Shown here in pieces: positions 29,924-48,616 of a stretch of DNA of 64,000 bases; position 1 is the stretch's first letter, and each line of letters starts with the position of its first letter. Position numbers and translations under genes: made by a program. This DNA comes from Verrucomicrobiota bacterium (GTDB lineage: Bacteria > Verrucomicrobiota > Kiritimatiellia > SS1-B-03-39 > UBA6053), in contig JAFIGD010000022.1 of the NCBI GenBank assembly GCA_020831625.1, forward strand, positions 1 through 64,000. The letters run 5' to 3'. A model generated the notes under the pieces. The model saw only the letters and a program-made list of their open reading frames with translations. It ran no database searches and was not told the DNA's origin.

Positions 29924-29960
29924 GACCGACCCGTCACCTCCGACGGGTCGGTCTTCTTTT
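29924..29960 (+). terminator. Strong intrinsic terminator downstream of creD
   Basis: A perfect 12-bp stem GACCGACCCGTC/GACGGGTCGGTC (29924-29935 and 29942-29953) with a six-base loop, followed by TTCTTTT. It lies 84 bases after the creD stop and isolates creD from the relics and transporter operon further right. Confidence 0.92.
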
Positions 29961-30265: not shown

Positions 30266-30352
30266 ATGAAGAAAAAAACACTTAAAATTCAGATGGATTG
30301 TTCCGGTCCCGCCTTCGACAACGCAACGTTCACCCTTTGTGAATCAATATGA
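30266..30352 (+). CDS. 28-aa upstream ORF overlapping the operon start
   Basis: ATG at 30266 opens a 28-codon frame whose TGA overlaps the ATG of the DUF6785 gene (ATGA). The peptide begins MKKKTLKIQMDCSGPAFD, which resembles the start of a small protein often found with DUF932-type mobile-element genes, so it may be a truncated relic. Its position nevertheless allows translational coupling to the transporter operon, which itself lacks a good ribosome binding site. Either reading is uncertain. Confidence 0.4.
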   Translation: MKKKTLKIQMDCSGPAFDNATFTLCESI

Positions 30353-32757
30353 GCTTTCGTTCTATACTTCTGGGCTTTCTTTTGGGGCTGTTCATGGCCA
30401 CCTTCACCTATTTCAACGATCAGGTGGTTGAGAACACGTTTCTGATTGGTAATTTTCTGCCGGTCGGTGTGTTCGGGGCGGTGTTGCTGTTGCTGATGCT
30501 GGTGAACCCGCTGCTGGCATCGGTTCGCGCAAGCTGGGCGCTGAAAGGCGGGGAGATCGCGATCATCACCGCCATGGGGCTGGCCGCATGCGCCTGGCCG
30601 GGGTCCAACTTTTTCCGGGTGTCCACCGGGGTCACCGCCATGCCCCGTCATCTCATTCATTTCAACAGCAGTTGGCAGTCGAACCATCTGATGTCCTATG
30701 TGCCGGGCGCCTCCGATGAGCTGGCGCAGGGGCATGTCACCGACTGGAGACATTTTGCCGGGGTGATCCGGGACGCGGACGCGGGTTCAGCAACGCCCGC
30801 CGGCACGCTGAAGTCCTGGATGCTTCCGGAGGAAAGAGGGGAGTTCAGCCGCGCGGCGGAGATGGAACTGGTGTCGGCCAACGCCGCCCGTCAAATGACG
30901 ATGACGCTCAACCGCCTTCTGGGTCTGGGGGCGCGGTGGGACAGCACGGTTCTGGCCGGGGAGAGTGGGGACTCCTCCGAGGGACTCAGCGAAACCGCGC
31001 GGCTTTCATTAAACCGGCGGCGGCTGGTTCAGGCGTTTCCGGATCTGGTTCTGCCGCCTCCCCGGGGCTTGCCTATTCTGCTGGACGTGCGGGAACACCG
31101 CGAGACGGCCTTAACCCCCTTGCTGGAGGGACGTCCGCCGGATGCGCGTCTTTCCGTTTTCCAACTGCCCTGGCGTGTCTGGGCTCCCACCATCCGCGTC
31201 TGGGGCACCGTGGTGCTGGCGCTGGGTCTGGCCACAGTCTGTATGGCGCTGATTGTGCACCGTCAATGGGCCAACAACGAGTTGCTGCCTTATCCCGTGG
31301 CCCGGTTTCTGGAGGAAACCCTCGACCGTCCCGACGGTCAGCGCTGGCCGCGCATCCTCCACAATAAATTTTTCTGGATCGGCTTCGGCCTCATTTTTCT
31401 TTTCCATTTGCAAAACGGCATTGCCACCTGGTTTGAAGTGATTCCCAGTTTCCCGAACCGCATTGATTTCAGTCCGCTGGCGACCTTGTTTCCGAACGCG
31501 CGCCGCGTCCCCCGGGCCATGCAGGGTCTTTTCTCTTTCGGGGTGATTCCCTCCGTGATCGCCTTCGCCTTTTTTCTGGATTCCCGCACCTCGCTGTCCC
31601 TCGGTCTGACCAATTTATTCTGGACGATGTTCGGTTCGGTTCTCATCGCCAACGGGGTGATGGTGGGTTCCAGTTACATGGGCGGTGAAAACGGACCGCT
31701 GCTTCGCTTCGGGGCCTTTCTGGGATTCGGGCTGATGATCCTGTACACCGGCCGCCGCTACTACAGGGAAGCTCTTTTAGAAACGGTGGGATGCAAAGGA
31801 TCCCGCCCGCTGCCCGGCTACGTGGCCTGGGCCGGCCGCGGCATGGCGCTGGGCGTGGGCCTGTCGATCTACGGACTCCACGCGGCCGGCCTGAATTTTT
31901 TCTGGTCCCTGATTCTGACAGCGGTCTGTCTGAATGTTTTCCTGGTGATGGGACGGATTGTGGCGGAAACCGGCGCCTTTTTTCTTCAGCCGCAATGGCT
32001 GCCGATCGGCGTGTTCACCACCCTGTTCGGCATGGAGGCCATCGGCCCGACGCCCTACATTGTCATGGCCCTGTCCAGCGCCCTGCTGGTGGGGGATCCC
32101 CGGACCACCCTGATGCCTTTCCTGCTCAACGGCCTGAAGCTGGGGGATGTGGCCGCCAACAAGGACAAGCCCGCCACCGGCCGCCTGGGAATCCTGCTGC
32201 TTCTGGTGGTGGCGGGATCTTTTGTTGCGGCGGGAGCCACGACCCTGTGGTTTCAGTACAACCGCGGCGTGAGCGGCGACATCTGGGCGAATCAGTCCCT
32301 GCCGGCCATGTCCTTTTTCAATCTCGACCGGGTGGTCGGAGAATTAACCGCCGGCGGGGAACTTTCCGCGGTGACACAGAACACCGCCAACCGGGCGGTT
32401 CCCGTGCCGTCGCCCGACAAAGGGGCGGTGATGTGGCTGTTGCTGGGCGGCGCGTTGGTGCTGATCTTCGCGATCGCCCGTCTGCGCCTGACCTGGTGGC
32501 CGTTTCATCCGGTGATTTTTCTGATTTGGGGCACGTATCCCATGGGGCTTTTCGGCGGCAGCTTTTTTCTGGGCTGGCTCATCAAGGAAGGAGTGGTGAA
32601 AACCTTCGGGACCCGCGGGTTTCATCTGCTCAAGCCTCTGATGGTCGGCATTATCTCCGCGGAGGTGCTTTCCGCGATCCTTTGGGGCGTTGTCTCCTGG
32701 ATCTATTATCTGAACACGGGCCGCCCGCCCATCACCTACCGTATTTTTCCCGCATGA
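30349..32757 (+). CDS. DUF6785/DUF6784-family large membrane protein, OPT-like
   Basis: An 802-residue polytopic membrane protein with about fourteen hydrophobic helices and one large soluble loop (residues ~110-290). The N-terminus LLGFLLGLFMATFTYFNDQVV and the C-terminal half (GRIVAETGAFFLQPQWLPIG) match DUF6785/DUF6784 proteins common in Planctomycetota and Verrucomicrobiota; these show distant likeness to oligopeptide (OPT) transporters. Transport is inferred, not proven. It is the first gene of a coupled operon: its TGA overlaps the next ATG, and a second OPT-like protein is the sixth gene. A dyad operator and promoter lie 150-190 bases upstream. Confidence 0.8.
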   Translation: MSFRSILLGFLLGLFMATFTYFNDQVVENTFLIGNFLPVGVFGAVLLLLMLVNPLLASVRASWALKGGEIAIITAMGLAACAWPGSNFFRVSTGVTAMPRHLIHFNSSWQSNHLMSYVPGASDELAQGHVTDWRHFAGVIRDADAGSATPAGTLKSWMLPEERGEFSRAAEMELVSANAARQMTMTLNRLLGLGARWDSTVLAGESGDSSEGLSETARLSLNRRRLVQAFPDLVLPPPRGLPILLDVREHRETALTPLLEGRPPDARLSVFQLPWRVWAPTIRVWGTVVLALGLATVCMALIVHRQWANNELLPYPVARFLEETLDRPDGQRWPRILHNKFFWIGFGLIFLFHLQNGIATWFEVIPSFPNRIDFSPLATLFPNARRVPRAMQGLFSFGVIPSVIAFAFFLDSRTSLSLGLTNLFWTMFGSVLIANGVMVGSSYMGGENGPLLRFGAFLGFGLMILYTGRRYYREALLETVGCKGSRPLPGYVAWAGRGMALGVGLSIYGLHAAGLNFFWSLILTAVCLNVFLVMGRIVAETGAFFLQPQWLPIGVFTTLFGMEAIGPTPYIVMALSSALLVGDPRTTLMPFLLNGLKLGDVAANKDKPATGRLGILLLLVVAGSFVAAGATTLWFQYNRGVSGDIWANQSLPAMSFFNLDRVVGELTAGGELSAVTQNTANRAVPVPSPDKGAVMWLLLGGALVLIFAIARLRLTWWPFHPVIFLIWGTYPMGLFGGSFFLGWLIKEGVVKTFGTRGFHLLKPLMVGIISAEVLSAILWGVVSWIYYLNTGRPPITYRIFPA

Positions 32758-34040
32758 ACGAACCCTGCACACTCCTGGAAACCTATGCCTGGATGGGCCT
32801 GCGCATCGCGGTGCCGGCCCATTGGGAACTGCGTCGTCACGGAATGAGCCCCGAAGCCGGAGCCCTGGTCTGGGTGGACCGGCACGCCCAGCGGCTCGAA
32901 CTCCGCTGGCTGCGTCCGGAGAAAGAGCCGGACCCGGCGCGAATGGTCGAACACACCCGTGATGCGCTCAAAAAGGATCAGCCGGATCTCCATTTGTCCA
33001 ATCTGCCCTCCGGTCTGCGCCCCTGGCAGGGGGTTCTCCACGGGCAGGAGCCGCGCATCTGTCAGACGGCCGCATATTTTCCCGATCACCGGGTCTTGCT
33101 GCAGCTGACCTTCAGTCTGGAGGGGGAGCGGGAGGCGCTGAACCGGCTTCTGCGTGAAATTCTGTCCTCGGTGGCGGTGGCGGAGGATCCGGCCCGGGCG
33201 ACGCGCTGGCGGGCGTTCGGAATCGACTGCACGGTGCCGGAAACGTGGACGCTGCGGCGCGCGGAAATTCTTCCCATGGACGCGAGGCTTCAGTTTTCCT
33301 GTCCGAAACGCGGACGGCTTCAGCGTCAGAACACCCTGTTTGAAGTCCGCCGCCTCGGCATGGTCCGGGAATGGTTTGACGGCAATCTGGTGCGGTTCGC
33401 GGAAAGCCGCGCACTGGGGCCGGCACCGGAGATCCGGGCGGATATCAATGACGGCAAATCCATTTGGGTTGATTCCTCGCTGGGCCGGTTCCCGCTTCTG
33501 GGCGGATTCGGTCCCAAAGACCGGGAACAGTTGAAACTGTGGCACGAACCCTCCCAGAACGCCATGTTCATTCTCCGGCTTTTCAATCCCGGTTCCGGTG
33601 TTCACCGGATCGACGATGTGCAGGTTGCCGGTGTGCCCTGCGCGTCCCCGCTTCCGGCGGAGCAGCAGCCCTCGAGAATCACGAATATGCCGATTCTGGA
33701 AGCCCTGCCGGTTCGGAATCAGGCGGTGAGCTTTGTGCGGGAAGGGCAGGGTGGCATCCTCCGCGCCCCCGTCCGGCCGCGGTGGTGGACCCGCGCGCCT
33801 TTCACCTGGTTTTTCCCTTTCCGCGACCGCCGCGGTTTCGGCCTCGACGGCTTCGGTCTCGAAGTGTGGAAGGCCTGCGACGGAGAGCGCACCGTGGAAA
33901 ATATTTGTGAACAATTCGCCCGCCGACACGGCATCACCTTCCAGGAGGCCCGGGTGGCGGTCTGTCAGTTCCTGGAAGTGCTCACCCGCCGTGAGCTGCT
34001 CGTGATCCATGTGCCAAAGGAGTGTCTGGAAGCCTCATGA
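32754..34040 (+). CDS. Protein with PqqD-like C-terminal domain, 428 aa
   Basis: The 428-residue protein has no signal peptide. Two repeated alpha/beta halves (residues ~10-140 and ~150-310; each starts with a motif like MGLRIAVPAHWELRR / FGIDCTVPETWTLRR) are followed by a PqqD-like winged-helix domain (~345-425): FGLDGFGLEVWKACDGERTV then ICEQFARRHGI. PqqD domains bind leader peptides of RiPP precursors or act as recognition elements. No radical-SAM or precursor gene is visible here, so it may recognise a partner protein or the transporter. ATGA overlaps at both ends couple it to its neighbours. Confidence 0.7.
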   Translation: MNEPCTLLETYAWMGLRIAVPAHWELRRHGMSPEAGALVWVDRHAQRLELRWLRPEKEPDPARMVEHTRDALKKDQPDLHLSNLPSGLRPWQGVLHGQEPRICQTAAYFPDHRVLLQLTFSLEGEREALNRLLREILSSVAVAEDPARATRWRAFGIDCTVPETWTLRRAEILPMDARLQFSCPKRGRLQRQNTLFEVRRLGMVREWFDGNLVRFAESRALGPAPEIRADINDGKSIWVDSSLGRFPLLGGFGPKDREQLKLWHEPSQNAMFILRLFNPGSGVHRIDDVQVAGVPCASPLPAEQQPSRITNMPILEALPVRNQAVSFVREGQGGILRAPVRPRWWTRAPFTWFFPFRDRRGFGLDGFGLEVWKACDGERTVENICEQFARRHGITFQEARVAVCQFLEVLTRRELLVIHVPKECLEAS

Positions 34041-35512
34041 AAGAAATCGTCGCCAAAGACCAGGTCGATCTGGGATCCGCCCGCTGCGTGCAACTGGCCT
34101 TCGCGGGCATGGTGTTCCGGCTGTTCCGGTCCCTGATCACCGTGGCCATTCTCGGCATGGCAGTGGCCTTTCTCGCCCACATGCTGGCCTACAGCGTCAT
34201 GTCCGGCGAAAGCGTCCGCCGCATTTGGCTCGAACTGGAGGCGGACCGCACCCTGGGTGTGCAGTTGCGCCGTCTGGAAAGTCCCGACCCCGCGGCTACG
34301 ATTCTGACACATTGGCAGCGGCGCGACGACTCCCGCATGGCCGAACACCGCGCCTGGGCCGGCCTCAATGAGGCCGACGCCGCCGAGATTCAGCGGATTG
34401 CGGACGCGGTGCGGGTGTTTGAGCGGACCATTCACTCGTTCAGTCCCCGCCAACGCGCCATTCTCGCGGGGGACCGCGGCACCCTGGAATTGCTTAACGC
34501 CCTGGCGGATGCGTCCACCCGCGAGGCGTTTCTGGAGCGAAACCGGCAGTTGGAGCGAACGGTTCCCCTCGGAAGCGCGGAGGCGCTCACCCGGCTGGCG
34601 GAGGAGGACTGGCCGGCCCTGCAGAAGTCCCTGGCCCGTGTTCGCGCCGGGCATCTCCGCGCCACCGGGACCCTGGAGGCCTCCCTGTCGCCCCAAACCC
34701 TCGGCGAAACCCTCATCGCCACCCCCGGCCGGGTGGAGGAACTCGCCGCCGCGGCCGGCTTTGACCTTCAGGGAATGGATTTTCCCCGTCTCGCCGCGTT
34801 CGCCGGCGACGCCCGGCTGCAGCGGCGGATCGAGGAGACCCTGGGCTCCATGGTGATCCGCCGCGCTCTTTCCCGAAGCCTGAATGTCCCGGTCGCTGAC
34901 GTGCACAACCTCCGTCTGCTCACCTGGCTGGCGGACAGTCCCGGCCACGCCGAGGAATTTGACGCGTTACTGGCGGAGGCGGAGGCGTTTGAGCCTCTGG
35001 GCGCGGCGGATGTACACCGGGTGGCCGCCCGGGCGCTGCATGTGCGCCGCCTGCAGCGTCTGGTGCCCGAAGCGCCCGATCTCGATGCGGCGGACAGCCT
35101 GTTCGGACTGGACACAAGCGCCCGCTGGCTCATCCTGCTGGCCTTTCTCGTCTGCGTCATCGGCGTGGCCAACGCCATGCTCATGTCGGTCACCGAACGC
35201 TTCACCGAAATCGCCACCATGAAGTGTCTGGGGGCGATGGATAAATTTATTATGCTGATGTTTGTCTTTGAAGCCGCGATTCAGGGACTGCTCGGCGGCA
35301 TCTTCGGGGCGGTGCTGGGTCTGGTGCTGGCCTGGATTCGGGGCGCGTCCGAGTTCGGCAACACCCTGGCGGTGGCCCCGGTCCTCGGAGCCGTGCTTAT
35401 CGCCGCCCTCTCCGCCCTCGGGATCGGCATCCTGCTCGCGGTGCTGGCCGCCGTGGGTCCCTCTCTGGTCGCGGCCCGTCTCGCCCCCATGGAGGCCATG
35501 CGTGTTGAATAA
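34037..35512 (+). CDS. MacB/LolCE-type FtsX-domain ABC permease
   Basis: A 491-residue permease: one N-terminal helix (residues ~20-45), a periplasmic region of ~300 residues, mostly helical, and three C-terminal helices (~355-480) with the FtsX signature NAMLMSVTERFTEIATMKCLGA. The last residues (LAPMEAMRVE) are the usual end of MacB-type permeases. Such proteins with an ATPase work as mechanotransmission complexes on lipoproteins, peptides or cell-wall enzymes. The ATG at 34037 overlaps the previous stop (ATGA); a GTG 15 bases earlier is less likely. The ATPase partner follows 18 bases after the stop. Confidence 0.88.
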   Translation: MKEIVAKDQVDLGSARCVQLAFAGMVFRLFRSLITVAILGMAVAFLAHMLAYSVMSGESVRRIWLELEADRTLGVQLRRLESPDPAATILTHWQRRDDSRMAEHRAWAGLNEADAAEIQRIADAVRVFERTIHSFSPRQRAILAGDRGTLELLNALADASTREAFLERNRQLERTVPLGSAEALTRLAEEDWPALQKSLARVRAGHLRATGTLEASLSPQTLGETLIATPGRVEELAAAAGFDLQGMDFPRLAAFAGDARLQRRIEETLGSMVIRRALSRSLNVPVADVHNLRLLTWLADSPGHAEEFDALLAEAEAFEPLGAADVHRVAARALHVRRLQRLVPEAPDLDAADSLFGLDTSARWLILLAFLVCVIGVANAMLMSVTERFTEIATMKCLGAMDKFIMLMFVFEAAIQGLLGGIFGAVLGLVLAWIRGASEFGNTLAVAPVLGAVLIAALSALGIGILLAVLAAVGPSLVAARLAPMEAMRVE

Positions 35513-35530: not shown

Positions 35531-36304
35531 ATGACCGTCCCCCAGCCCTCTCCACAAACCGACCCCGCCGAACGCCGCGCGGTGATTGTCCGCACGCTGA
35601 ACCTTGAAAAGGTCTACGGCAGCGGGGACGCCGCGACCTACGCCCTCAACGGCGTGGACAGCGCCATCTACCGCGGCGAACTCATTGCCATCATGGGGCC
35701 CTCCGGTTCCGGAAAAAGCACCTACTTCAACATGATCGGGGCCCTCGACGCGCCCACCAAAGGCCGCATTCTCATCGACGAGGTGGACGTCGCCCAGCTT
35801 TCCGCCGCCGAACTCGCCTTTCTCCGCTGCCGCAAAATCGGCTACATCTTTCAGTCCTACAACCTTATCCGCTATATGACCGCGCTCGAAAATGTGACCG
35901 TGCCCATGACCTTCTCCGGCACTTCCCCCGAAGAGGCCCACCGCCGCGGCATGGAGCTGCTCGATCTCGTCGGCCTCGGCGAGCGCTGGCAGCACCGGCC
36001 CATCGAAATGTCCGGCGGTCAGCAACAGCGCGTGGCCATCGCCCGCTCTCTGGCGAACCAGCCGCAGATTCTCCTCGCCGACGAGCCCACCGCCAACCTT
36101 GATTTAAAAACCGGCGAGGAAATCCTCGGAATTCTCCGCCGCATCAACGAGGAGCGGGGCGTCACGGTCATTTGCTCCACCCATGACCACCGGCTGCTGC
36201 ATCTCTGTCACCGCATCATGTGGATCCGGGACGGCAAGGTCGAGCGCGTGGAGCGCCGCGAGGATCTCCGCATCAAAACCGGCAAAATCGGGGGGGAATC
36301 CTGA
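35531..36304 (+). CDS. LolD/MacB-type ABC ATPase, first copy
   Basis: A 257-residue ATPase with Walker [11 protein letters not shown]-loop FQSYNL, signature [15 protein letters not shown], Walker [13 protein letters not shown] and a switch His in STHDH. FtsX-type systems use this LolD/MacB clade. The N-terminus has a longer Pro-rich lead before LEKVYGSGD. The TGA overlaps the ATG of the large M28-like/FtsX protein (TGATG), so the gene order permease-ATPase-permease is translationally coupled. A second, distinct copy ends the operon. Confidence 0.94.
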   Translation: MTVPQPSPQTDPAERRAVIVRTLNLEKVYGSGDAATYALNGVDSAIYRGELIAIMGPSGSGKSTYFNMIGALDAPTKGRILIDEVDVAQLSAAELAFLRCRKIGYIFQSYNLIRYMTALENVTVPMTFSGTSPEEAHRRGMELLDLVGLGERWQHRPIEMSGGQQQRVAIARSLANQPQILLADEPTANLDLKTGEEILGILRRINEERGVTVICSTHDHRLLHLCHRIMWIRDGKVERVERREDLRIKTGKIGGES

Positions 36305-39300
36305 TGCGCATCCTTCATCTGCTGCCGGCGCTGCTGTTCCTCCCGCTCACCGCCGGGATTCAGGACGCGGCCTTCCACGGGGATCTCGCCCGGCTGACCG
36401 CCACCGCGCACCGCCTGCCCGGCAGTCCGGAGCAACAGGCCGCCGCCGCGCATATCGAAAGCAGGCTCAACGCCATGGGCCTCGACGAGGTGCACAGCCT
36501 TGAATTCGACACCTGGACACCCGAGATTCTCCGCTCCGAACTGTTGCTGGACGGAGAGACGCTGCCCATCCTGCCCATGCGACCGAACGTGTTGATCTGG
36601 CCCAACACCCCGGACGAAGGCCTGCGCGCCCGGGTGCTCTATGTCGGAGCCGGGGAGATCACCGACTATGGCGACCGCAATCCGGACGGAGCCATTGTGC
36701 TGATGGACTACGCCAAGGGCGGCAATTGGCGGCTCGCCTTCTCCCTCGGCGCCCGCGCGGTGATTTTCCACGGCGCGCCTGAAGACACGCCCTCCGCGCC
36801 CGTGCACGTGACCGCCCCCGCCAACCTGCTCCGTTTTTATCTGGACCGCGACACCCTTTCCGACCCCGCGGCGCTGGAAGGGCGGGAGGTCACCCTTCAC
36901 AGTCAAACCCGATGGACGCCCCGCACCGACCGCGTGCTGTACGCCCGCGTCCGCGGCACCGATCCCGATCCGCGCGGACCGGTGCTGCTGGCGGCCGACA
37001 CGGATTCTTTCGGCAACGTGCCGCACCGGAGTCCCGGCGCCCGCGCCGCCGCCAACAGCGCGCTGCTGCTGCAGTTCGTCGAACATTTCGCCGACAACCG
37101 TCCCCGTCACGATGTGGCCTTTCTGTTCACAAGTTCACGCGCCTACAATCACCAGGGCACCCGCTATTTTTACGAGGCCTTCACGCTTCCGGAGCGCCGG
37201 ATCACCGAAATCCGGGACGGTCTCGCGCAGGAGGCCGCCGATTTGGACGCCGCTCTGGCGCTGTTGCGGGAAGAGGGGCTCTCCGCGGAAACCGCCTCGC
37301 CGGCCGGGCTGCTGCTGCAGCGGCAGTTCTCTCAGGAGGCCTCCTATCTCAATGACGACCTCACCGCAGAGATCCAGCGCGCCCGTCTGGCGCTTCCCCG
37401 CGACCGCCGCACGCTCGACACGCCCGAAACCCGGATCATCACCCGGCAGATTGAACGCCGCTCGGTGGTGGACGATTACCGCCGGGCCCTGTTTCGCGGC
37501 GGCGTCCCGGCCCTGCTGGCGTCCCTGGAGGACGAAACCCCGCCGGATCTTCCGTCCTTCGGTGAGGATGAGGCGGCAAACCACCGCATCCGGCGGGAGG
37601 TTTTCCCCTCCGTTGCGGATGAAATCCTGCAGAACACCCGCCGGCGACTCCGCCGCCGTCTGGAGGAGCTGGCGGCGGAAGAACAGTTCTGGGAAAACGC
37701 CCGCACCCTCCGCGCCGAGCGCGAAACCCTTCCGGGGGTTCTCCTGCACATCAGTCTGAATCTGGGCGACGCCTGCTCACGCTGGGGCGTGGTGTTGGGC
37801 GATCCGCTGGATCAGATGATGAATTTATCACCAATGACCGCCGGCGATCTGCCCGGGAACTATGTGCGGCTGCTCACCCAGCTCAACGAACTCGCCGACG
37901 ACCCCGAAGTCATGCCCAATCTCGTGCGCCGCACCCTCCGTGACACCCGCCACGGCCCCGGATTCGTCGGTGAGCCCTTCACCTCCAGCGGCAGAATTGC
38001 CGGCATGTATTCGGTCTACAATTTCGCCCTCATGACCGAGAACGACGCCCGGTTGCGGGACGGACATCCCGGAGACACCGCCGCGGCGCTGGATGCGGAC
38101 GCGCTGCTGACGCAGGGCCGCGAAGCCCTGACCCTGGTCGAGGGGCTGCTCGGCATTCCCAATCCCGGGGTGAGCCGGTCCATCAGCCGCGTGGCCCAAA
38201 CCAAGCGGCCCGAGTGGCGCAACGGACGTCCCTGGGGGGACTTCGCCTCGCGCACGGTGGTGGGGGGGCTGGCGGAAAGCCGTCCGGCCGATGACGCCCT
38301 GCTGGCCCACTGGCCCGTTCCCCGCTTCGGTTTCGGCACCGGCACGCACTGGAGCAGCCTGAAGGAAACCGCCGCCTACCGGGACTTCATGCCCTACGGA
38401 TTCCAGCGCGCCAACGCCTTCGGGCGCTTCTCGATTCTCGGCCACCGCAGTCACGACACCCAGCTCGCGGTGATGGGCGCCCACTTCGGAGACGACGGCA
38501 AACTGTCGGCCATCTCCGATCAGAGCAGTCAGCTCTTCTCCCGCTTCGGCGCCAGCCTGCGGATGACCCTCTTCCGCGCCGAGGGCCATGTGCTTCAGGC
38601 CAACCCCGGACATCCGACCTTTCCCACCAGTCTGCAGATTCTCAAAGGAGCCACCAATTTCGCATTCCAGCCCGAACGCGTGCTCTGGGGCACGGTGGAC
38701 GACTTCAGTTTCGCCTATCTCGCCGAGCGGGAGCTGGACAGCGGCATCAAGATTTTTCAGCGCCTCGGACCCGTGATCATGGCCGAGCCCGGAGAGGATC
38801 CCGTCCTCGGGACCGGCCTCCCCACCGCCGATTTGCGCAACCCCGTGCGGGTCAGCCGCTACACCGCCGCCAATCTCTGGGATCTCAATGAGTCCCGGCT
38901 GACCACGCTGCGGTCCCGGGGCATCAGCCGCACCGACCTGGAGCGCCACCACAGCCGAGCCCTCTCCGCCCGCGAACAGGTCGGTGAAAGCCGCAGTCTG
39001 GCCGAGGAGGAGTCGCTCCTGCTCTCCAGCGCCTCCATTTCCCACCGCCTCTATGAGCCGCTGCGCAGTTCGATGGACGACCTGGTCACCGCCATTGTCA
39101 TGCTTCTGCTGCTCAGTCTGCCCTTCGCCTTCGCCATGGAGCGTCTGCTCATCGGCTCCACCACCATTTACGGACGGGTCGGCGGCTTCTGCGGCTTTTT
39201 CATCGCCACCTTCGGGCTGCTCTACTTCCTGCATCCCGGCTTTGCCATTTCCTCGGCACCGATGATTATTTTCCTGGCCTTCACGGTGCTGGGGCTGTCC

Positions 39301-41157
39301 GCGATTGTCATCCAGATGCTGATCCGCCGGTTCCGTCAGGAACTGAAACTGCTGCAGGGGCAGGGGAGTCTGGCGCACGACGCCGAAGTCTCCCGCGCCG
39401 GCACCATGCTCGCCGCCGTGGGCATGGGCATGTCCACCATGCGCCGCCGGCCCACCCGCACCTTCCTCACCGCCATCACCGTGGTGGCCCTCACCTTCAC
39501 TATTCTCTGCTTCGCCTCCTTCACCCGCGAAATGGGAGTCCGCGCGACCTACCTCAGCCCCAGTCCCGAAGACCAACCCGACGGCGTGCTGATCCGCAAC
39601 CTCAACTACGGACCGCTCCCCAACGGCATCCGCGAACTGCTGCTCCGCTATGAACAGGATGAAACCCGCATCACCAGCCAGTGGTGGCTGCGCCGTCAGG
39701 GGGGCGACAGCCCCGCGATCCTGATCAGCAACCCCGCCACCGGCCGCGCCGTGGAAATCGAGGCGCTGGTGGGGCTGGATCCCCGCGAGGTGGAGCGCTG
39801 GCCCGCGATGGGCGCGCTCGACCCGGAACCCGGCCGCTTCCGCGATCAGCTTCGCGAAGACGCGGTTTTTCTGCCGGCCTTTCTGATGGAATTGCTCGAG
39901 GTCTCGCCCGGAGACGAGGTGCTGCTCCGCGGCCGCCGCGTCACCGTGGGCAACGGCATTGAACTCAACCGCCTGCAGAACCTGCGGGGTATCGACCAGG
40001 AATCCCTGCTGCCGCTCGACGCGCGCCAGGAGGATCCCACCGGCGCCCAGGCTCCGGATTCGGAGGCGGATGTGCTGGATCTGGACGGCGAAGTGGAGCA
40101 GCATTTTGTCCGCCTCGGGGTCGGGGAGGTGGCCCTCACCTCCGTGAACCGCGTCCGCGAACTCGGAGGAAAGCCCCACATCCTGACCCTCTATCCCTCG
40201 GAAACCCTGCGCGCCCGCGATCTGGCGCAGACCCTGGCGGTGCTGGTGTCCTCGCCCGTGTGGGTGGTGAGCGAGACCGGTGTGGAGCGCATGATCCTTA
40301 CCCATCTCACTCAGATTTCCGGAATCTTCGCCATCGCCATTCCCATGCTGCTCGGCGGACTGATCATTTTCGGCACCCTGCTGGGATCGATCACCGACCG
40401 CGAAAAAGAGATTTACACCTTCAGCGCCCTCGGCCTCGGACCCTCCCATGTGGGCATGCTCTTCTTCGCGGAGGCGGGGGTCTACGCGGTGGTCGGCGGC
40501 ATGGGCGGCCAGCTCATCGCCCAGATCGTGGCCCGGGTGGCCTCGCTGCTGGCCCGTCACGGCGTCATCGACCCCATTTCCATGAACTTCTCCTCCACCA
40601 ACTCGCTCTTCGCTATTGGTGTGGTGATGGCCCTGGTGCTGATCTCCTCGCTCTATCCCGCCTACCGGGCCTCCAAAAGCGCCAACCCCGGACTCGCCCG
40701 CGAATGGTCCATGCCTGAACCGGCAAACGGCGTGATCCAACTCACCTTCCCTTTCACCGTCTCCGCGTATGACATCACCGGTGTGGTCAGCTTCCTCGCC
40801 GAACACTTCCGCAGCTTCGACGATGCCGGGTTCGGCAAATTCGCCACCACCCGCGCCGCCATCCTGCGCAATGAGGAGGGGCAGCTCCAGCTCAAAGCCA
40901 GCCTGGCCCTGGCACCCTTCGACCTCGGAGTGACCGAGGAACTCACCCTGGAGGCCAGTCCCTCGGAAATCGAAGGCATCGACGAAGTCCGCGTCACCAT
41001 CCGCCGCCTCAGCGGGGCCGAGGGCGACTGGATTCGCGGCACCCGCGTGTTTCTCAAGGAACTCCGCACCCAATTCCTCGTCTGGAGAACCCTCTCCTCC
41101 GAAAAAATCGAGGCCTACCGCGCCAAAACCTTCTCTGAACTCGGGGAGGAGAACTGA
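36304..41157 (+). CDS. 1617-aa fusion of degenerate M28-like domain and FtsX permease
   Basis: Signal peptide (MRILHLLPALLFLPLTAG), then an M28 aminopeptidase-like region (~20-320) with an inserted PA-like domain (~115-165), an alpha-helical part (~320-600), further extracytoplasmic sequence to ~925, a membrane block (~929-1013, three helices), another helix at ~1047 (TFLTAITVVALTFTILCFA), an extracytoplasmic domain (~1080-1325) and an FtsX-type C-terminal block (~1330-1470), ending in a ~150-residue soluble tail. The M28 metal ligands are missing: the GAHxD strand reads LAADTD, the DNASG loop reads ARAAANSA, and EExGL reads SSRAYN (residues ~225-280). It is probably a binding module, not an active peptidase. 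Fifth gene of the operon. Confidence 0.8.
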   Translation: MRILHLLPALLFLPLTAGIQDAAFHGDLARLTATAHRLPGSPEQQAAAAHIESRLNAMGLDEVHSLEFDTWTPEILRSELLLDGETLPILPMRPNVLIWPNTPDEGLRARVLYVGAGEITDYGDRNPDGAIVLMDYAKGGNWRLAFSLGARAVIFHGAPEDTPSAPVHVTAPANLLRFYLDRDTLSDPAALEGREVTLHSQTRWTPRTDRVLYARVRGTDPDPRGPVLLAADTDSFGNVPHRSPGARAAANSALLLQFVEHFADNRPRHDVAFLFTSSRAYNHQGTRYFYEAFTLPERRITEIRDGLAQEAADLDAALALLREEGLSAETASPAGLLLQRQFSQEASYLNDDLTAEIQRARLALPRDRRTLDTPETRIITRQIERRSVVDDYRRALFRGGVPALLASLEDETPPDLPSFGEDEAANHRIRREVFPSVADEILQNTRRRLRRRLEELAAEEQFWENARTLRAERETLPGVLLHISLNLGDACSRWGVVLGDPLDQMMNLSPMTAGDLPGNYVRLLTQLNELADDPEVMPNLVRRTLRDTRHGPGFVGEPFTSSGRIAGMYSVYNFALMTENDARLRDGHPGDTAAALDADALLTQGREALTLVEGLLGIPNPGVSRSISRVAQTKRPEWRNGRPWGDFASRTVVGGLAESRPADDALLAHWPVPRFGFGTGTHWSSLKETAAYRDFMPYGFQRANAFGRFSILGHRSHDTQLAVMGAHFGDDGKLSAISDQSSQLFSRFGASLRMTLFRAEGHVLQANPGHPTFPTSLQILKGATNFAFQPERVLWGTVDDFSFAYLAERELDSGIKIFQRLGPVIMAEPGEDPVLGTGLPTADLRNPVRVSRYTAANLWDLNESRLTTLRSRGISRTDLERHHSRALSAREQVGESRSLAEEESLLLSSASISHRLYEPLRSSMDDLVTAIVMLLLLSLPFAFAMERLLIGSTTIYGRVGGFCGFFIATFGLLYFLHPGFAISSAPMIIFLAFTVLGLSAIVIQMLIRRFRQELKLLQGQGSLAHDAEVSRAGTMLAAVGMGMSTMRRRPTRTFLTAITVVALTFTILCFASFTREMGVRATYLSPSPEDQPDGVLIRNLNYGPLPNGIRELLLRYEQDETRITSQWWLRRQGGDSPAILISNPATGRAVEIEALVGLDPREVERWPAMGALDPEPGRFRDQLREDAVFLPAFLMELLEVSPGDEVLLRGRRVTVGNGIELNRLQNLRGIDQESLLPLDARQEDPTGAQAPDSEADVLDLDGEVEQHFVRLGVGEVALTSVNRVRELGGKPHILTLYPSETLRARDLAQTLAVLVSSPVWVVSETGVERMILTHLTQISGIFAIAIPMLLGGLIIFGTLLGSITDREKEIYTFSALGLGPSHVGMLFFAEAGVYAVVGGMGGQLIAQIVARVASLLARHGVIDPISMNFSSTNSLFAIGVVMALVLISSLYPAYRASKSANPGLAREWSMPEPANGVIQLTFPFTVSAYDITGVVSFLAEHFRSFDDAGFGKFATTRAAILRNEEGQLQLKASLALAPFDLGVTEELTLEASPSEIEGIDEVRVTIRRLSGAEGDWIRGTRVFLKELRTQFLVWRTLSSEKIEAYRAKTFSELGEEN

Positions 41158-41159
41158 TC

Positions 41160-43235
41160 ATGTCTGACAAAACCGCCAAACCCAAACGCCGTCCCAAAGA
41201 GCGGGGCGTGGACAAAGAATTCGAAATATTCCGCGACCAGATGCGGCCCCCCGGGAAATTCGAGGAGGGCTTCTCCTGGGAATCCTTCATCGGAGCTCTT
41301 TTCATCGGCATGGTCATGGTCCCCGGCGCCATCTACATGACCCTGCTCGCGGGCGAGTCCATCGGACCCGCCGCGCAATGGGTGACGCTGATTCTGTTCC
41401 TCGAAGTGGCCCGCCGCGCCAACCGCGACATTCCCAACGCCCAGATCTTCACGCTGTTCTACATCTCCGGGGCGCTCATGGCCACCGCCAGCGGCTCCGC
41501 CGGCAACTTCCACGGCGGACTGCAGGCGATTTACAATCAGTTCTTTGTGCAGTCCGACGCCGCCCGCGCCGCCGGGATCGCCGAACTCATGCCCTCCTGG
41601 GTGGCCCCCAATGATCCCGCCGTGCTCGAAAGCCGGTCGTTTCTCCGCATCGAATGGCTCGCGCCCATCGGGCTCATGATCTTCACCATGATTCTCGGAC
41701 GCATCGACAGCATGATTGTGGGGTACGGACTCTTCCGCCTCACCAGCGACATCGAAAAACTTCCTTTCCCCATGGCCCCCGTGGGGGCCCAGGGCATCCT
41801 CGCCCTTTCCGAAGAACAGAAAGGCCACGAGATCTCCTCTGAAAGCGGCAGGGAAGGGGTCTCCAAGTGGCGCATGTTCTCCATCGGATCCGTCATCGGA
41901 CTGATCTTCGGCTTTGTGTATCTGGGCATTCCCACCATCACCGGCGCGCTGCTCAACGAACCCATCATTCTCATTCCGCTGCCGTTCGTCGACTTCACCC
42001 GCGACACCGCCGGCATTCTGCCCGCCGCCGCCGTGGGGCTGGCCTTCGACCTCGGCTTTGTCATCGTCGGCATGGTGCTGCCGTACTGGGCCATGGTCGG
42101 CTCTTTCATCGGCCTGCTCGTCACCCTCATCGTCAATCCCATCCTTTACCGCGGCGGGGTGCTGACCTCCTGGAATCCGGGCGACAATCTGCAGGAGACC
42201 TTTTACAAAGGCAACATCGACTTTTATTTCAGCTTCTCCATCGGGATCGCGCTCGCCATCGCCATCGCCGGCATTGTCAGCGTCACCCTCAAAACCCGCC
42301 GCGACCGCGCCCGGCGTGAGCGCGAGCAGAACCCGCTCGCGCTCACATCCTCGACGATTCCCGAAGGGCGGGGCGACATCCGCGCGCTCTGGGTGTTCGC
42401 CACCTACCTCATCGCCTGCGCGCTCTACATCGGCGTGTCCATGTATCTGCTCTACATCACCGACGGCAGCATTCACTGGCCGGTGGTGTGGATCATGCTC
42501 TTTTACGCCTTTGTGTTCACCCCCTTCATCAGTTACATGACCGCCCGCATGGAGGGCATCGCCGGACAGGTGGTGACCATTCCTTTTGTGCGCGAGGCCT
42601 GTTTCATTCTCTCCGGCTATTCCGGGGTCGCGGTGTGGTTCCTGCCCATTCCCCTGCACAACTACGGTCAAATGACCGTCTTCTACCGGCAGTGCGAACT
42701 CACCGGCACCAAGTTCACCTCCATCTGGAAATCCGAAGTGCTGCTCATGCCCATCATCCTCGGTTTCAGCCTGCTCTTCGCGCACATGATCTGGCAGATG
42801 GGCGACATCCCCGGCCCCAACTTCCCCTTCGCGCAGCAGTGGTGGGAAGTGACCGCCGCGCAGAAATCCCTGATTTTCTCCTCGACCCTCGGCGGCTTCA
42901 CCGAATTTGAGCAGGCCATCAACCCCGGCTACATCGGCTGGGGCGTGGGGCTCGGCTGTCTCGCCTTCGCGCTCATGGGCTGGTTCGCGTTGCCGGTCTT
43001 CCTGATTTACGGTGTGGTGCGCGGACTTAATCAGACCCTGCCCTTCATGGTCATTCCCCAGTTCTTCGGCGCGCTGCTTGGACGCTTCTATTTCCAGCGC
43101 AAATTCGGCGCGAAGAAATGGCGGCAGATGATACCGGTCATCTTCGCCGGGTTCAGTTGCGGCATGGGCCTCATCGCCGTGTTCGCCCTCGGATTCGTTT
43201 TCCTCAAAGGCAGCGTCATCAGTCTTCCCTTCTAA
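41160..43235 (+). CDS. OPT-like (peptide transporter-type) membrane protein
   Basis: A 691-residue polytopic membrane protein with a cytoplasmic N-terminal extension (residues 1-45, Lys/Arg-rich) and about fourteen helices. ESFIGALFIGMVMVPGAIYMTLLAGESIGPAAQWV and FPMAPVGAQGILAL near residue 200 resemble OPT/YSL-family oligopeptide or metal-chelate transporters; annotated relatives in the PVC phyla are called 'peptide transporter'. The substrate is unknown. It follows the M28-like/FtsX gene after two bases and precedes the second ATPase by ten bases. Confidence 0.82.
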   Translation: MSDKTAKPKRRPKERGVDKEFEIFRDQMRPPGKFEEGFSWESFIGALFIGMVMVPGAIYMTLLAGESIGPAAQWVTLILFLEVARRANRDIPNAQIFTLFYISGALMATASGSAGNFHGGLQAIYNQFFVQSDAARAAGIAELMPSWVAPNDPAVLESRSFLRIEWLAPIGLMIFTMILGRIDSMIVGYGLFRLTSDIEKLPFPMAPVGAQGILALSEEQKGHEISSESGREGVSKWRMFSIGSVIGLIFGFVYLGIPTITGALLNEPIILIPLPFVDFTRDTAGILPAAAVGLAFDLGFVIVGMVLPYWAMVGSFIGLLVTLIVNPILYRGGVLTSWNPGDNLQETFYKGNIDFYFSFSIGIALAIAIAGIVSVTLKTRRDRARREREQNPLALTSSTIPEGRGDIRALWVFATYLIACALYIGVSMYLLYITDGSIHWPVVWIMLFYAFVFTPFISYMTARMEGIAGQVVTIPFVREACFILSGYSGVAVWFLPIPLHNYGQMTVFYRQCELTGTKFTSIWKSEVLLMPIILGFSLLFAHMIWQMGDIPGPNFPFAQQWWEVTAAQKSLIFSSTLGGFTEFEQAINPGYIGWGVGLGCLAFALMGWFALPVFLIYGVVRGLNQTLPFMVIPQFFGALLGRFYFQRKFGAKKWRQMIPVIFAGFSCGMGLIAVFALGFVFLKGSVISLPF

Positions 43236-43245
43236 GGATATCATC

Positions 43246-44019
43246 ATGACCGAAGCCCCCTCCAAAGAAATCATCCCCTCCGGCGCCACAACCAAACCCA
43301 TCGTGCAGGTCCACGACGTCTCCAAGATCTACCGCCTTCGCGAAGAGACCGTCTACGCCCTCAACAAGGTCAGCCTGACCATCTATCAGGGAGAATACCT
43401 CTCCATCATGGGGCCGTCCGGCTCCGGGAAATCCACCCTCTTCAACATCGTCGGCGCCCTCGACAACGCCAGCGAGGGCTACGCCCAGATTGGAGACATC
43501 CGCCTCACCCATCTGACTCCCCGCCAGCTCTCCCACGTGCGCTGCAACTACATCGGATATATTTTCCAGGCCTTCAACCTGATCCCCTCGCTCACCGCCC
43601 TCCGCAACGTCGCCCTCCCGTGTATCTTCATGGGGGTTCCCCCCGAAGAGGCCGACAAGCGCGCCGCCGAAGTGCTCACCCAGGTCGGCCTCGGCCACCG
43701 CCTCGACCACACCCCCGGCGAACTGTCCGGCGGACAGCAGCAGCGAGTCGCCATCGCCCGCGCCCTCATCAACGACCCCTGCATCATTCTCGCCGACGAA
43801 CCCACCGCCAACCTCGACCTGCAGACCGGATCGGATGTGATTCAGATCCTCAAGAACCTCTCCGTCGAGCGCGGGGTCACCATCATCACCGCCACCCACG
43901 ACCACAAGATGCTCAGCCAGTCCGACCGCGTCGTCCGCATCCGCGAAGGGCAGATCGAGGCCATCCAAAACCGCGACGAACTCGAGATCGAAGAAGGCAC
44001 CATCGAATTCGCGCACTGA
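43246..44019 (+). CDS. LolD/MacB-type ABC ATPase, second copy
   Basis: A 257-residue ATPase with Walker [11 protein letters not shown]-loop [10 protein letters not shown], signature [15 protein letters not shown], Walker [13 protein letters not shown] and switch His ATHDH. It is similar in length and layout to the first ATPase of the operon but clearly different in sequence, so the two may drive different permeases (the 491-aa FtsX protein and the M28-like/FtsX fusion). It is the last gene; a palindromic repeat pair follows 37 bases after its stop. Confidence 0.94.
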
Positions 44020-45682: not shown

Positions 45683-45790
45683 CCATAAAAAATTATACAG
45701 GATTGAACAATATCTCTATCTTTTTACACATAGTCCCGCCCAGTGTAAGGTATGGACGTTTTGAGTCTCAACACCCAGCCCCCAAATTCA

Positions 45791-48616
45791 ATGAAGAAAA
45801 TACTCCTCCAGAAAACAGTACGATTCGCGGCGTTTCTCATAGCCGTTCAGGCCCTGGCCCTTGCCCAAAACACGGTCTATGTTTCAATTAACGGCTATGA
45901 TTCGAATCCGGGCACCGCCGCGCAACCGTTCCGCACCTTGAAGCGGGCTATCCAGGTTGTGCAGTCGGGTGACACCATTCAGCTCGGCTCCGGAACGTTT
46001 GTGGAGCCCGCCACGCTGAACCTCTCCAATCTTGACGGGATCTCCCTTCTCGGCTCGGGACGCGGATTGGGGGCGGGGGCCACTATTCTGACCGGAAGCT
46101 GGAGCAACACGACCACGGATGTGGAGCAGAGCAATTCCCAGCCCAGGCTGATGGTAATCTCCGACATCGAGGGGCTGACGATCCGGAATTTGACCTTCAG
46201 CGGAAATGACCGTGCCATTGCCCGTGGAGTGGATCTTCGGCGAATTGACGGCTTAACCGTGGAAAATGTGGATTTCATACGTTTTCTTTCGACGGCCCTC
46301 TCTCTGGAGGATGTCTCCAATGGAGAGCTGGTCCATATGAATATTCATGAGTCCGGTTATGGCTGGACGGGATGGTCGCTCGGAATGGTGAGTCTCAACA
46401 GTCTGACCGATGTTCTGTTTGATTTCATCAGCTTCTACAGCCCGGACAATCCGCCGGATCGAAGTTATGGATATGCGGTGAAAGCGGTGGGACGGGCCAA
46501 TGATCCGCAATGGAACGTGTTGCGCAGAGTGGTTTTCTCAAACCTTGACATCGATCTGCACCCTGGCCAGGCGTGGAACAACGGCACCGCGCCGAATTTC
46601 TCCTTCGAATTCATTCGGGCCTCGCTGGTCGACGTGGAGATTCGGAACAGTTACATCCGCAATTCCATCTCCTTGCCGGACGCGCGGACCGTCGCCGGAG
46701 GAACCCACCCCTATGGATTATTCATCCACCGGAACACGTTTGATTTGCACGGCTGGGCCTATTGGGTGGAAATGGCGGGATCCTCGATTGAAATCGCCTA
46801 CAACCATGTGAAACACGCTTACCCCGTGAGTGGTCATGCAATGTTGATTGATTTTTCGAGAGGTACCAAAACTTTCTCGGACATTTCCATACACCACAAT
46901 GTGATAGAGAATGCCGTTCGGTTTATGCGTTTGCAGAGCACCTATAACAACCTTAAAGTTTATAATAACACGGTGTATTTACTGCTTGGCAGCAACCCGC
47001 AACACAACGCGGCATTTCTTGCCAAAACTTCTTCCGGTACCGGGAGTAATTGGGAGATTAACAACAATGCCGTGGTCTCCATCACGGGAGCGTCCATACC
47101 ACTGATTCAAAAGACGGAAGTCGCACCGCACCCCACAAATCTGACGATCCGCAACAATCGGCTCGACGAAGTGACGCTCGGGGACATCCCCTCCGGGGCA
47201 ACCGTATACGGAAACAGTTATGGCGATCCGGGCTTTCATGAGTCCGGCGAGGCGCCCTATCCATATTTTGCGGCCATTTCCGAGTTCAGTCCCGTGGTGG
47301 ATGCGGGAGTTCATATGGAGTCCCCGTACGTGGGACTCGCCCCGGATATCGGAGCCTTCGAATGGGGAGGCCCGACCGTTCTCGGAGAGATTGAAGATCC
47401 CGGCGCCGGCGACGGCATACTTACACCGGACTCGGTATTCGCCAGTGGTTACCAATCTCCCAATTATCCGGAAAACGCGTTTGATCAGGATCCCCATACC
47501 CGCTGGGCCTCAGGAATCGGATCGTGGTTGGCTGCGGATCTTGGCACGGCCCAAACCATGAACGGAGTCGAACTGACCTTTTTCAGCGGCGACAGCCGAT
47601 CCTACGAGTTTCAGATCGAATTTTCCAATGACGGAAACAACTGGACACCGGTTTGGGGCACCCACCGCTTCAGCAGCGGTCAGACCGCCGGGCCGGAGAC
47701 TTTTAACTTTTCCGATCCGATCACCGCCCGGTATATCCGGTATGTTGGTTTCGGCAACACCAGTAACGGATGGAATTCACTCCATATGTTCAACATCATC
47801 GGACCCTCCGGCGAGATGCTGATTTTCGCCCCGTCCTCCGTATCGGCAAGCAGTTATCAATCCCCCCATGATCCAGAAAACGCTTTTGACCACGACCTCA
47901 ACACCCGCTGGGCCGCGGGCAACGGATCGTGGCTTGAGGCGGATCTCGGGACCTCCCGGACCCTGACAGGAGTTGAACTGGTGTTCTACCAGGGCGGCAG
48001 CCGTTCCTACGAGTTCCGGATCGAAACCTCGACCGACGGAAACCACTGGTCTTCGGTTTGGAGCAGCCATCGTTTCAGCGGCCAAACGATCGGTGCGGAG
48101 ATCTTCACCTTTCCCTCCCCGGTCACCGCCCGGTATGTCCGCTATGTCGGCTTCGGCAGTACCAGCAACGGCTGGAATTCCCTCCATGTCTTCAACATCG
48201 CCGGAACCATCGGCGAGGCATATCTCTTCGCCCCGTCCTTCGTGTCGGCGAGCAGTTACCAATCCCCCAATGATCCTGAAAACGCTTTTGACCACGACCT
48301 AAACACCCGCTGGGCAGCGGGCAACGGATCGTGGCTTGAGGCGGATCTCGGAACCTCCCGGACTCTGACAGAAGTTGAACTGGTGTTCTATCTGGGCGGC
48401 AGCCGTTCCTACGAGTTCCGGATCGAAACCTCGACTGACGGAACCAATTGGTCTTCGGTGTGGAGCACCCATCGTTACAGCGGCCAATCCGCCGGTCCTG
48501 AAACCTTTACCTTTCCCGACCCGGTCATCGCCCGGTACATCCGCTATGTCGGCTTCGGCAGTACAAGCAACGGCTGGAATTCCCTCCATGTCTTTAACAT
48601 CGCCGGAACACCCTGA
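45791..48616 (+). CDS. Secreted beta-helix protein with three F5/8C (discoidin) domains
   Basis: A 941-residue secreted protein. A signal peptide (MKKILLQKTVRFAAFLIAVQALALAQN) is followed by a right-handed parallel beta-helix (~residues 25-530; starts VYVSINGYDSNPGTAAQPF and has repeated N-ladders such as EIAYNHV), and then three F5/8-type C domains (~544-675, ~680-810, ~816-941). The beta-helix is of the type in pectate-lyase-like and related polysaccharide-active proteins; I see no certain catalytic residues. The discoidin domains probably bind sugar. ATG at 45791 gives the signal peptide, while the frame is open to an ATG at 45752 with a poor N-terminus. Confidence 0.85.
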   Translation: MKKILLQKTVRFAAFLIAVQALALAQNTVYVSINGYDSNPGTAAQPFRTLKRAIQVVQSGDTIQLGSGTFVEPATLNLSNLDGISLLGSGRGLGAGATILTGSWSNTTTDVEQSNSQPRLMVISDIEGLTIRNLTFSGNDRAIARGVDLRRIDGLTVENVDFIRFLSTALSLEDVSNGELVHMNIHESGYGWTGWSLGMVSLNSLTDVLFDFISFYSPDNPPDRSYGYAVKAVGRANDPQWNVLRRVVFSNLDIDLHPGQAWNNGTAPNFSFEFIRASLVDVEIRNSYIRNSISLPDARTVAGGTHPYGLFIHRNTFDLHGWAYWVEMAGSSIEIAYNHVKHAYPVSGHAMLIDFSRGTKTFSDISIHHNVIENAVRFMRLQSTYNNLKVYNNTVYLLLGSNPQHNAAFLAKTSSGTGSNWEINNNAVVSITGASIPLIQKTEVAPHPTNLTIRNNRLDEVTLGDIPSGATVYGNSYGDPGFHESGEAPYPYFAAISEFSPVVDAGVHMESPYVGLAPDIGAFEWGGPTVLGEIEDPGAGDGILTPDSVFASGYQSPNYPENAFDQDPHTRWASGIGSWLAADLGTAQTMNGVELTFFSGDSRSYEFQIEFSNDGNNWTPVWGTHRFSSGQTAGPETFNFSDPITARYIRYVGFGNTSNGWNSLHMFNIIGPSGEMLIFAPSSVSASSYQSPHDPENAFDHDLNTRWAAGNGSWLEADLGTSRTLTGVELVFYQGGSRSYEFRIETSTDGNHWSSVWSSHRFSGQTIGAEIFTFPSPVTARYVRYVGFGSTSNGWNSLHVFNIAGTIGEAYLFAPSFVSASSYQSPNDPENAFDHDLNTRWAAGNGSWLEADLGTSRTLTEVELVFYLGGSRSYEFRIETSTDGTNWSSVWSTHRYSGQSAGPETFTFPDPVIARYIRYVGFGSTSNGWNSLHVFNIAGTP

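Follow-up and report, generated by a model that had tools for sequence, protein, structure and literature searches.

A family of FtsX-type permeases in a Verrucomicrobiota bacterium and its relatives carries an M28-like ectodomain that has lost its metal ligands

Background

What does a peptidase fold do at the outer end of an ATP-binding cassette (ABC) permease once its metal ligands are gone? The question is raised by a gene on a 64,000-nucleotide stretch of DNA (here called the window; positions 1 to 64,000 of contig JAFIGD010000022.1, assembly GCA_020831625.1, from a Verrucomicrobiota bacterium), which encodes a large FtsX-type permease with a long N-terminal ectodomain. A sequence-only reading of the window had recognised M28 peptidases in the layout and strand order of this ectodomain, had noted that each ligand motif was changed, and had proposed an extracytoplasmic binding module fused to a permease. 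We establish here the fold of the ectodomain, the loss of the ligands throughout the family, purifying selection on the protein, its permease core and the conserved gene block in which it lies, and we consider which function could unite them.

Results

The ectodomain has an M28-type fold

Scanned alone against Pfam, the large permease matches FtsX only, with no M28 and no LysM match, and a single-sequence phmmer search aligns residues 31-157 weakly with the M28 aminopeptidase 2ek8 (E 0.011). Because single-sequence tests of this kind are weak and would have misled, a family profile and a structure model were needed. A related-locus search gave 80 homologous loci (group A; one without the permease C-terminus), the records of which are by name mainly Verrucomicrobia, Lentisphaerae/Lentisphaeria, Kiritimatiellae/Kiritimatiellota, Planctomycetota and Phycisphaerae, with one each from Myxococcales, Spirochaetes and Omnitrophota and two from Chitinivibrionales; one locus (L107) belongs to the named strain Oligosphaera ethanolica DSM 24202. 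The 52 homologues whose blastp match starts near the N-terminus were retained, and shortened records and poor N-terminal matches were dropped; 49 of these (L087, L094 and L095, which appeared close to L083, were omitted) together with the window protein make up an alignment of 50 ectodomains covering residues 19-920. A further 25 more distant paralogues (group B) were hand-picked from a genome search; every pair of a paralogue and one of the 50 family members is at most 45.5% identical, and their alignment is less sure than that of the 50.

The profile built from the 50 ectodomains matches 2ek8 with an E value of 3.4e-14 and YwaD/BSAP (6hc6) with 2.5e-11, followed by a Pseudomonas aeruginosa aminopeptidase listed as keratinase KP1 (1.2e-6), nicastrin (1.3e-6), TfR1 (9e-4) and nicalin (0.013). 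All except the last of the 25 listed matches bear names of M28-superfamily proteins or of nicastrin-containing gamma-secretase, the last being an autotransporter-named chain at E 0.07. When the 50 ectodomains were scanned one by one, Pfam Peptidase_M28 (PF04389) was found in 27 (best E 1.3e-10), unlike in the window protein, PA in 6 and Nicastrin in 3.

An AlphaFold2 model of residues 19-920, computed from the 50-sequence alignment, has a mean predicted local distance difference test score (pLDDT) of 93.0 and a predicted template modelling score of 0.92. Its best Foldseek match is again 2ek8 (1.4e-17), with a loose global superposition (root-mean-square deviation, rmsd, 8.5). VIA-align superposes the ectodomain on the Bacillus subtilis aminopeptidase BSAP (6hc6) with Z 27.4 (rmsd 5.1, 375 residues aligned), on the M28 prototype 1amp with Z 26.9 (rmsd 2.6, 256 aligned) and on TfR1 (3kas) with Z 26.4 (rmsd 6.5, 384 aligned). 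Profile and model thus bear out the assignment made from strand order, and the predicted structure shows the ectodomain to be a genuine M28-type peptidase fold that includes a PA domain. Its limits had been set too short at residues 20-320: the M28 fold occupies model residues 1 to about 600, interrupted by a helical insert of about 180 residues (model 279-462, about residues 297-480), after which it resumes and reaches about residue 615. The beta-rich domain that follows (residues 631-818) gave no match when searched alone against PDB sequences.

The metal site has been lost throughout the family

The five M28 ligands (H, D, E, D, H) correspond in the window protein to D232, R247 or A248, A280, N486 and G587, and all five are changed. 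These positions were set not by coordinates but by aligning the sequences with those of M28 enzymes from related genomes (a relaxed pattern retained 21 of 30 such loci, some of them in wrong frames). The altered strings described earlier are all present, namely A230-A-D-T-D234 at the place of GAHxD, A249-A-N-S-A253 at that of DNASG, and S277-S-R-A-Y-N282 at that of EExGL, where the EE pair corresponds to R279-A280. The register that pairs DNASG with AANSA had to be shifted: the bridging Asp most likely belongs at R247 (or A248) and not at A249, because an acidic residue occupies position 247 in 11 of the 25 paralogues. Further along, the former NLDM strand spans residues 481-486, and the former HTPxDT motif reads G587-H-P-G-D-T592.

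The same picture is seen across the 50 ectodomains. The metal His at 232 is present in 6 and the metal Asp at 486 in 5; position 280 (the metal Glu) is acidic in none, nor are 247 and 248, the former being Arg in 47. The final metal His at 587 is Gly in all 50, with Pro589 (50) and Asp591 (49) of its motif persisting, and the position of the base (279), Arg in the window protein, is Gln in 33 and Glu in 2, both of which are without the metal Glu. Altogether 37 ectodomains keep none of the five ligands, 13 keep one and none keeps two. Among the 25 paralogues, where positions 232, 234, 247-249, 279 and 280 were counted, His is present at 232 in 2, Asp or Glu at 247 in 11 and Glu at 280 in none. 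The homologues therefore share the loss first noticed in a single protein. Judged by this census it is long-standing, and the acids still found at 247 in paralogues suggest that it was stepwise. Since the metal ligands and the base were looked for and are absent, the alignments identify the large permease as homologous to M28 enzymes, yet not as an M28 peptidase.

Missing ligands would also be expected if the gene were simply decaying, as a pseudogene, or were an artefact that arose in sequencing or assembling a single genome. This explanation is refuted with near certainty by three observations. The frame is intact over its 1617 amino acids (aa; stop at 41155-41157). At least four of the five ligands are lost in all 50 members, and the metal Glu in all 25 paralogues, so the loss is not a local artefact. 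Moreover, the ratio of nonsynonymous to synonymous substitution rates (dN/dS) measured against the closest two relatives (identity across the whole protein 74% and 65%) is 0.15-0.33 in the M28 parts and the helical insert, which argues that the domain is retained and not decaying; it is 0.20 in the transmembrane (TM)/FtsX part, and all these ratios are rough because several dS values exceed 1. Another explanation, improbable in our judgement if less so than decay, is that the ectodomain has remained an enzyme by rebuilding its site, with conserved polar residues forming a new metal or acid-base centre. Such residues exist: D234, the Asp of the HxD motif, and E310 are invariant in the 50 ectodomains, and H482 (47/50), D489 (44/50) and H283 (43/50) are strongly conserved. 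However, the window protein and 37 of the 50 members have other residues at all five ligand positions, and the conservation of D234 needs no new chemistry, the Asp of HxD being a supporting residue in M28 enzymes.

Intact M28-FtsX fusions were sought in 39 genomes. Among the matches listed, eleven to M28 were counted in frames of at least 1300 aa; ten belong to the large-permease family and the eleventh (L176) is M28-beta-lactamase-like and, judging its translation by eye, has no FtsX. This 1471-aa frame of a related genome seems, again by eye, to be an intact M28 peptidase joined to beta-lactamase-like domains.

The permease half, the cytosolic tail and the placement of the ectodomain

Hydropathy places the FtsX helices at residues 1053-1071, 1338-1356, 1383-1401 and 1435-1453, after three extra hydrophobic segments (Table 1) that, lying between a periplasmic ectodomain and the first FtsX helix, would keep the core in its usual orientation. 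A second model (residues 911-1617, mean pLDDT 70.9) was superposed with VIA-align on YbbP (9ge6, Z 11.6) and LolE (9xro, Z 11.5); the rmsd of 13-15 in these full-permease comparisons is expected because the model is of moderate confidence. The MacB periplasmic domain (3ftj) gave Z 10.6 with rmsd 4.3 over 179 residues. By domain content the large permease is a type VII (MacB/LolCE/FtsX) ABC permease; it scores 19.2 bits with the ADOP duplicated permease model TIGR03434 (curated cut-off 622.3) and 13.9 bits with the LolCE model TIGR02212 (cut-off 362.45), both below the cut-off.

The cytosolic tail (residues 1474-1603) is strongly conserved and resembles KA1 (3osm, Z 8.3, rmsd 2.9) and the Bet v 1 family (Z about 8), likenesses that VIA-align grades as borderline and of a common level. 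The PADLOC model PDLC01991, labelled CARF_m8--CARF_LolE_TM, matches residues 876-1504 (E 3.8e-47), the match stopping at profile position 597 of 810 (the position of the CARF part in this profile is taken from its label). Relatives of the permease half have thus been catalogued before; the M28-like part alone and the tail alone match no PADLOC model.

Of five paralogues scanned, L034 and L032, the latter from the window's own genome, have a LysM domain above the Pfam cut-off inside the M28-like region, and L046 has one below it (E 0.0066); in all three the insertion site lies just before the former GAHxD strand. These LysM matches support an extracytoplasmic place of the ectodomain and hint, at the level of sequence, at contact with the cell wall in the LysM branch. 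Together with the signal-peptide-like N-terminus and the three hydrophobic segments before the FtsX core, they fit the extracytoplasmic location of the earlier claim; "binding" is our interpretation (see Discussion). As a separate observation, the LysM-bearing paralogous blocks of L032 and L033 have immediately upstream of them several open reading frames (ORFs) whose N-termini are prepilin-like (GFTLxE).

A conserved gene block with an OPT-like membrane protein

The large permease gene is the fifth of a seven-gene plus-strand block in which neighbours overlap or are separated by at most 18 bases (Table 1): a DUF6785/DUF6784 protein, a protein with a PqqD tail, a small FtsX permease, LolD-type ATPase 1, the large permease, an OPT-like protein ("OPT2") and LolD-type ATPase 2. 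Its start codon overlaps the stop of the ATPase 1 gene (TGATG). An antisense frame opposite it (37828-41073, minus strand, 1081 aa) is probably a by-product of codon composition.

Table 1. Coordinates of the gene block in the window and of the parts of the large permease
Feature	Position	Strand	Evidence
Membrane protein DUF6785/DUF6784 ("OPT1", label only)	30349..32757	+	Pfam E 8.9e-66 and 3.1e-14
Protein with C-terminal PqqD domain; ATGA overlap with preceding gene	32754..34040	+	Pfam PqqD E 5.3e-10
Small FtsX-type permease	34037..35512	+	Pfam FtsX E 5.9e-15; ORF from GTG 34022, ATG 34037 overlaps preceding stop
LolD/MacB-type ATPase 1	35531..36304	+	Pfam ABC_tran E 2.5e-32; NCBIfam LolD E 1.7e-65, under that model's cut-off
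Large FtsX-type permease with M28-like ectodomain, 1617 aa	36304..41157	+	ORF; Pfam FtsX 1342-1458, E 2.4e-10
Hydrophobic N-terminus, signal-peptide-like, residues 1-18	36304..36357	+	Hydropathy; putative signal peptide
M28-like domain part 1 and PA insert, residues 19-296; lost GAHxD, DNxSG and EE positions (232-234, 247-253, 279-280)	36358..37191	+	Model, pLDDT 93; Foldseek/VIA-align; profile match to 2ek8 and 6hc6; ligand census
Helical insert within M28 fold, about residues 297-480	37192..37743	+	DSSP of model
M28-like domain final part, about residues 481-615: former NLDM strand (N486), former HTPxDT motif (G587)	37744..38148	+	VIA-align over model residues 1-613; comparison with M28 enzymes of related genomes
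Beta-rich domain, residues 631-818	38194..38757	+	Model of residues 19-920
Three extra hydrophobic segments, 927-945, 959-982, 988-1006	39082..39321	+	Hydropathy
Type VII permease core: TM1 1053-1071, MacB/LolE-like periplasmic domain about 1088-1328, last TMs 1338-1453	39460..40662	+	Second model; VIA-align; Pfam FtsX
Conserved cytosolic tail 1474-1603, helix-grip (Bet v 1/KA1)-like	40723..41112	+	Second model; VIA-align, borderline
OPT-like membrane protein ("OPT2")	41160..43235	+	Constant neighbour; Pfam OPT in 11 of 21 aligned members
LolD-type ATPase 2	43246..44019	+	Pfam ABC_tran E 9.7e-34

OPT2 is the most constant neighbour. Counting only loci with enough sequence on the relevant side, it is adjacent downstream in 74 of 74 group A loci, and it is adjacent in 23 of 24 paralogous ones (97/98 together). 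Pfam OPT (PF03169) was found in 11 of 21 aligned OPT2 members (best E 1.6e-10), the OPT2 of the window itself having no match. In a protein search, 50 of the phylum's 288 genomes were found to carry OPT2. The window's own genome has three copies, and two of them come directly after paralogous large permeases.

In group A the small FtsX precedes the large permease at 57 of 58 loci and ATPase 2 is located 3' of OPT2 in 56 of 58; PqqD and OPT1 were found in 44 of 55 and 27 of 44. ATPase 1 was counted upstream in 54 of 59 loci by one rule and in 51 of 60 by a second; both counts are probably low through start-site errors, because the misses of the two rules overlap in L122 only. At group B loci tblastn found these other genes of the window less often: an ATPase in 10 of 22, the small FtsX in 1 of 11, PqqD in 0 of 4, OPT1 in 1 of 2 and ATPase 2 in 4 of 8. 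Some paralogous loci also show similar-looking ORFs that these counts left unscored.

The PqqD domain (PF05402) scores 39.9 bits against a cut-off of 23.4 and covers residues 357-412 of the translation from 32766. At L073 this protein is split into two ORFs, one for its N-terminal part and one for its PqqD part, and by eye two ORFs resembling these parts are located downstream, not upstream, of OPT2 in a paralogous block of the window's genome (L031, 15764-17091). For OPT1 a relation to OPT would be conjecture: the OPT1 and OPT2 profiles are unlike (hhalign probability 0.2), and the Pfam names of OPT1 are DUF6785/DUF6784.

A promoter scan gave 4 sites against 2.1 expected, and 21 terminator-like sites were found against 14.3 expected; one of the latter, a hairpin of 12 pairs at 29924-29953, lies about 400 bases ahead of the first gene of the block. 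Downstream of the block are two large beta-helix proteins with several F5/8 type C domains (45752-48616 and 48628-51102).

Discussion

We lean towards a reading in which the large gene encodes a non-catalytic ligand- or partner-binding ectodomain on a type VII ABC permease that works with its OPT-like neighbour. A PA-containing M28 peptidase would have been fused long ago to the periplasmic end of such a permease and would then have lost its zinc site, so that the dead peptidase may now act without catalysis as a receptor or lid, holding either a peptide-like ligand or a protein partner. Nicastrin and the transferrin receptor are M28-fold proteins that hold a ligand or partner without catalysis. 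The LolD-type ATPases, acting on the large and the small FtsX subunits, could by hydrolysing ATP move the ectodomain through mechanotransmission, and the OPT-like membrane protein might be loaded, released or gated by this motion. Mechanotransmission of periplasmic domains is described for type VII ABC systems in PMC12646458. As to the ligand, peptides are our best guess, because a pocket derived from an aminopeptidase, OPT and PqqD all point to them, and the cell wall is the main alternative. OPT proteins are oligopeptide transporters, and PqqD is a peptide-binding domain in known systems.

Several points weigh against this reading. Its ligand, partner and complex are ones that we infer; PqqD and OPT1 were missed in one fifth to two fifths of the group A loci able to show them (tblastn may miss diverged genes), and a PqqD match is by itself no proof of peptide handling. 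The LysM domains of some relatives point rather to the cell wall, and the likeness to the PADLOC CARF_m8 LolE model fits signalling as well as transport. These last two points also favour an alternative that we regard as possible though rather unlikely, namely envelope signalling in the manner of FtsEX, where no substrate is moved and the ATP-driven motion of the ectodomain would activate a periplasmic enzyme or recruit one, or else fasten the machine to the cell wall, with the OPT-like protein as partner or scaffold and not as conduit. That FtsEX controls a hydrolase with the same ABC type (PMC7668044) adds to this, as does the presence of a LysM-bearing relative in the window's own genome. 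Set against it are the absence of LysM from the Pfam scan of the window protein and the near-invariant pairing with a transporter-like protein, which together with the PqqD protein favours substrate handling. Developing the binding-ectodomain reading further, we tentatively suggest a hitherto undescribed composite envelope machine, common in Planctomycetes-Verrucomicrobia-Chlamydiae (PVC) bacteria, in which an OPT-like protein would be coupled to a type VII ABC pair, the large subunit of which would bear a dead aminopeptidase as receptor for the substrate outside and a helix-grip sensor inside, and mechanotransmission would drive an OPT-type conduit for peptides, perhaps modified ones given PqqD.

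Compared with the M28 aminopeptidases that have a PA domain (BSAP/YwaD and the Aneurinibacillus enzyme 2ek8; the prototype 1amp is without PA), the large permease has the same fold, PA insert, motif layout and PxDT end motif, whereas it is without the zinc ligands and the base, has the helical insert and is fused to a permease. Nicastrin, transferrin receptor 1 and nicalin share the M28-type fold without catalysis; they are, however, eukaryotic, and their partners are gamma-secretase, transferrin or translocon factors and not an ABC permease. YbbAP-TesA, LolCDE, MacAB-TolC and FtsEX-EnvC have the same permease core, MacB-like periplasmic domain and LolD-type ATPases, to which the large permease adds the three hydrophobic segments, the cytosolic tail and the OPT-like neighbour. 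In YbbAP, according to PMC12646458, TesA is a hydrolase subunit of its own that sits on top of the periplasmic domains, while in the large permease a hydrolase fold without catalytic residues is part of the same chain. With PDLC01991 the LolE-type region is common, the M28-like part and the tail matching nothing there, and PDLC01990 ("...Beta-galactosidase_LolE_TM") by its label also joins an enzyme-like part to a permease. A search limited to open-licence papers found none on an M28-FtsX fusion or on the gene block, and none under the names DUF6785/DUF6784.

M28-fold proteins that have abandoned catalysis are few, and the family adds a bacterial, ATP-driven case to their number. It also connects the M28 fold with a type of permease known for mechanotransmission. 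The gene block supplies a context for DUF6785/DUF6784. Finally, should the large permease and the OPT-like protein be paired physically, two transporter classes that have been treated as separate would be linked.

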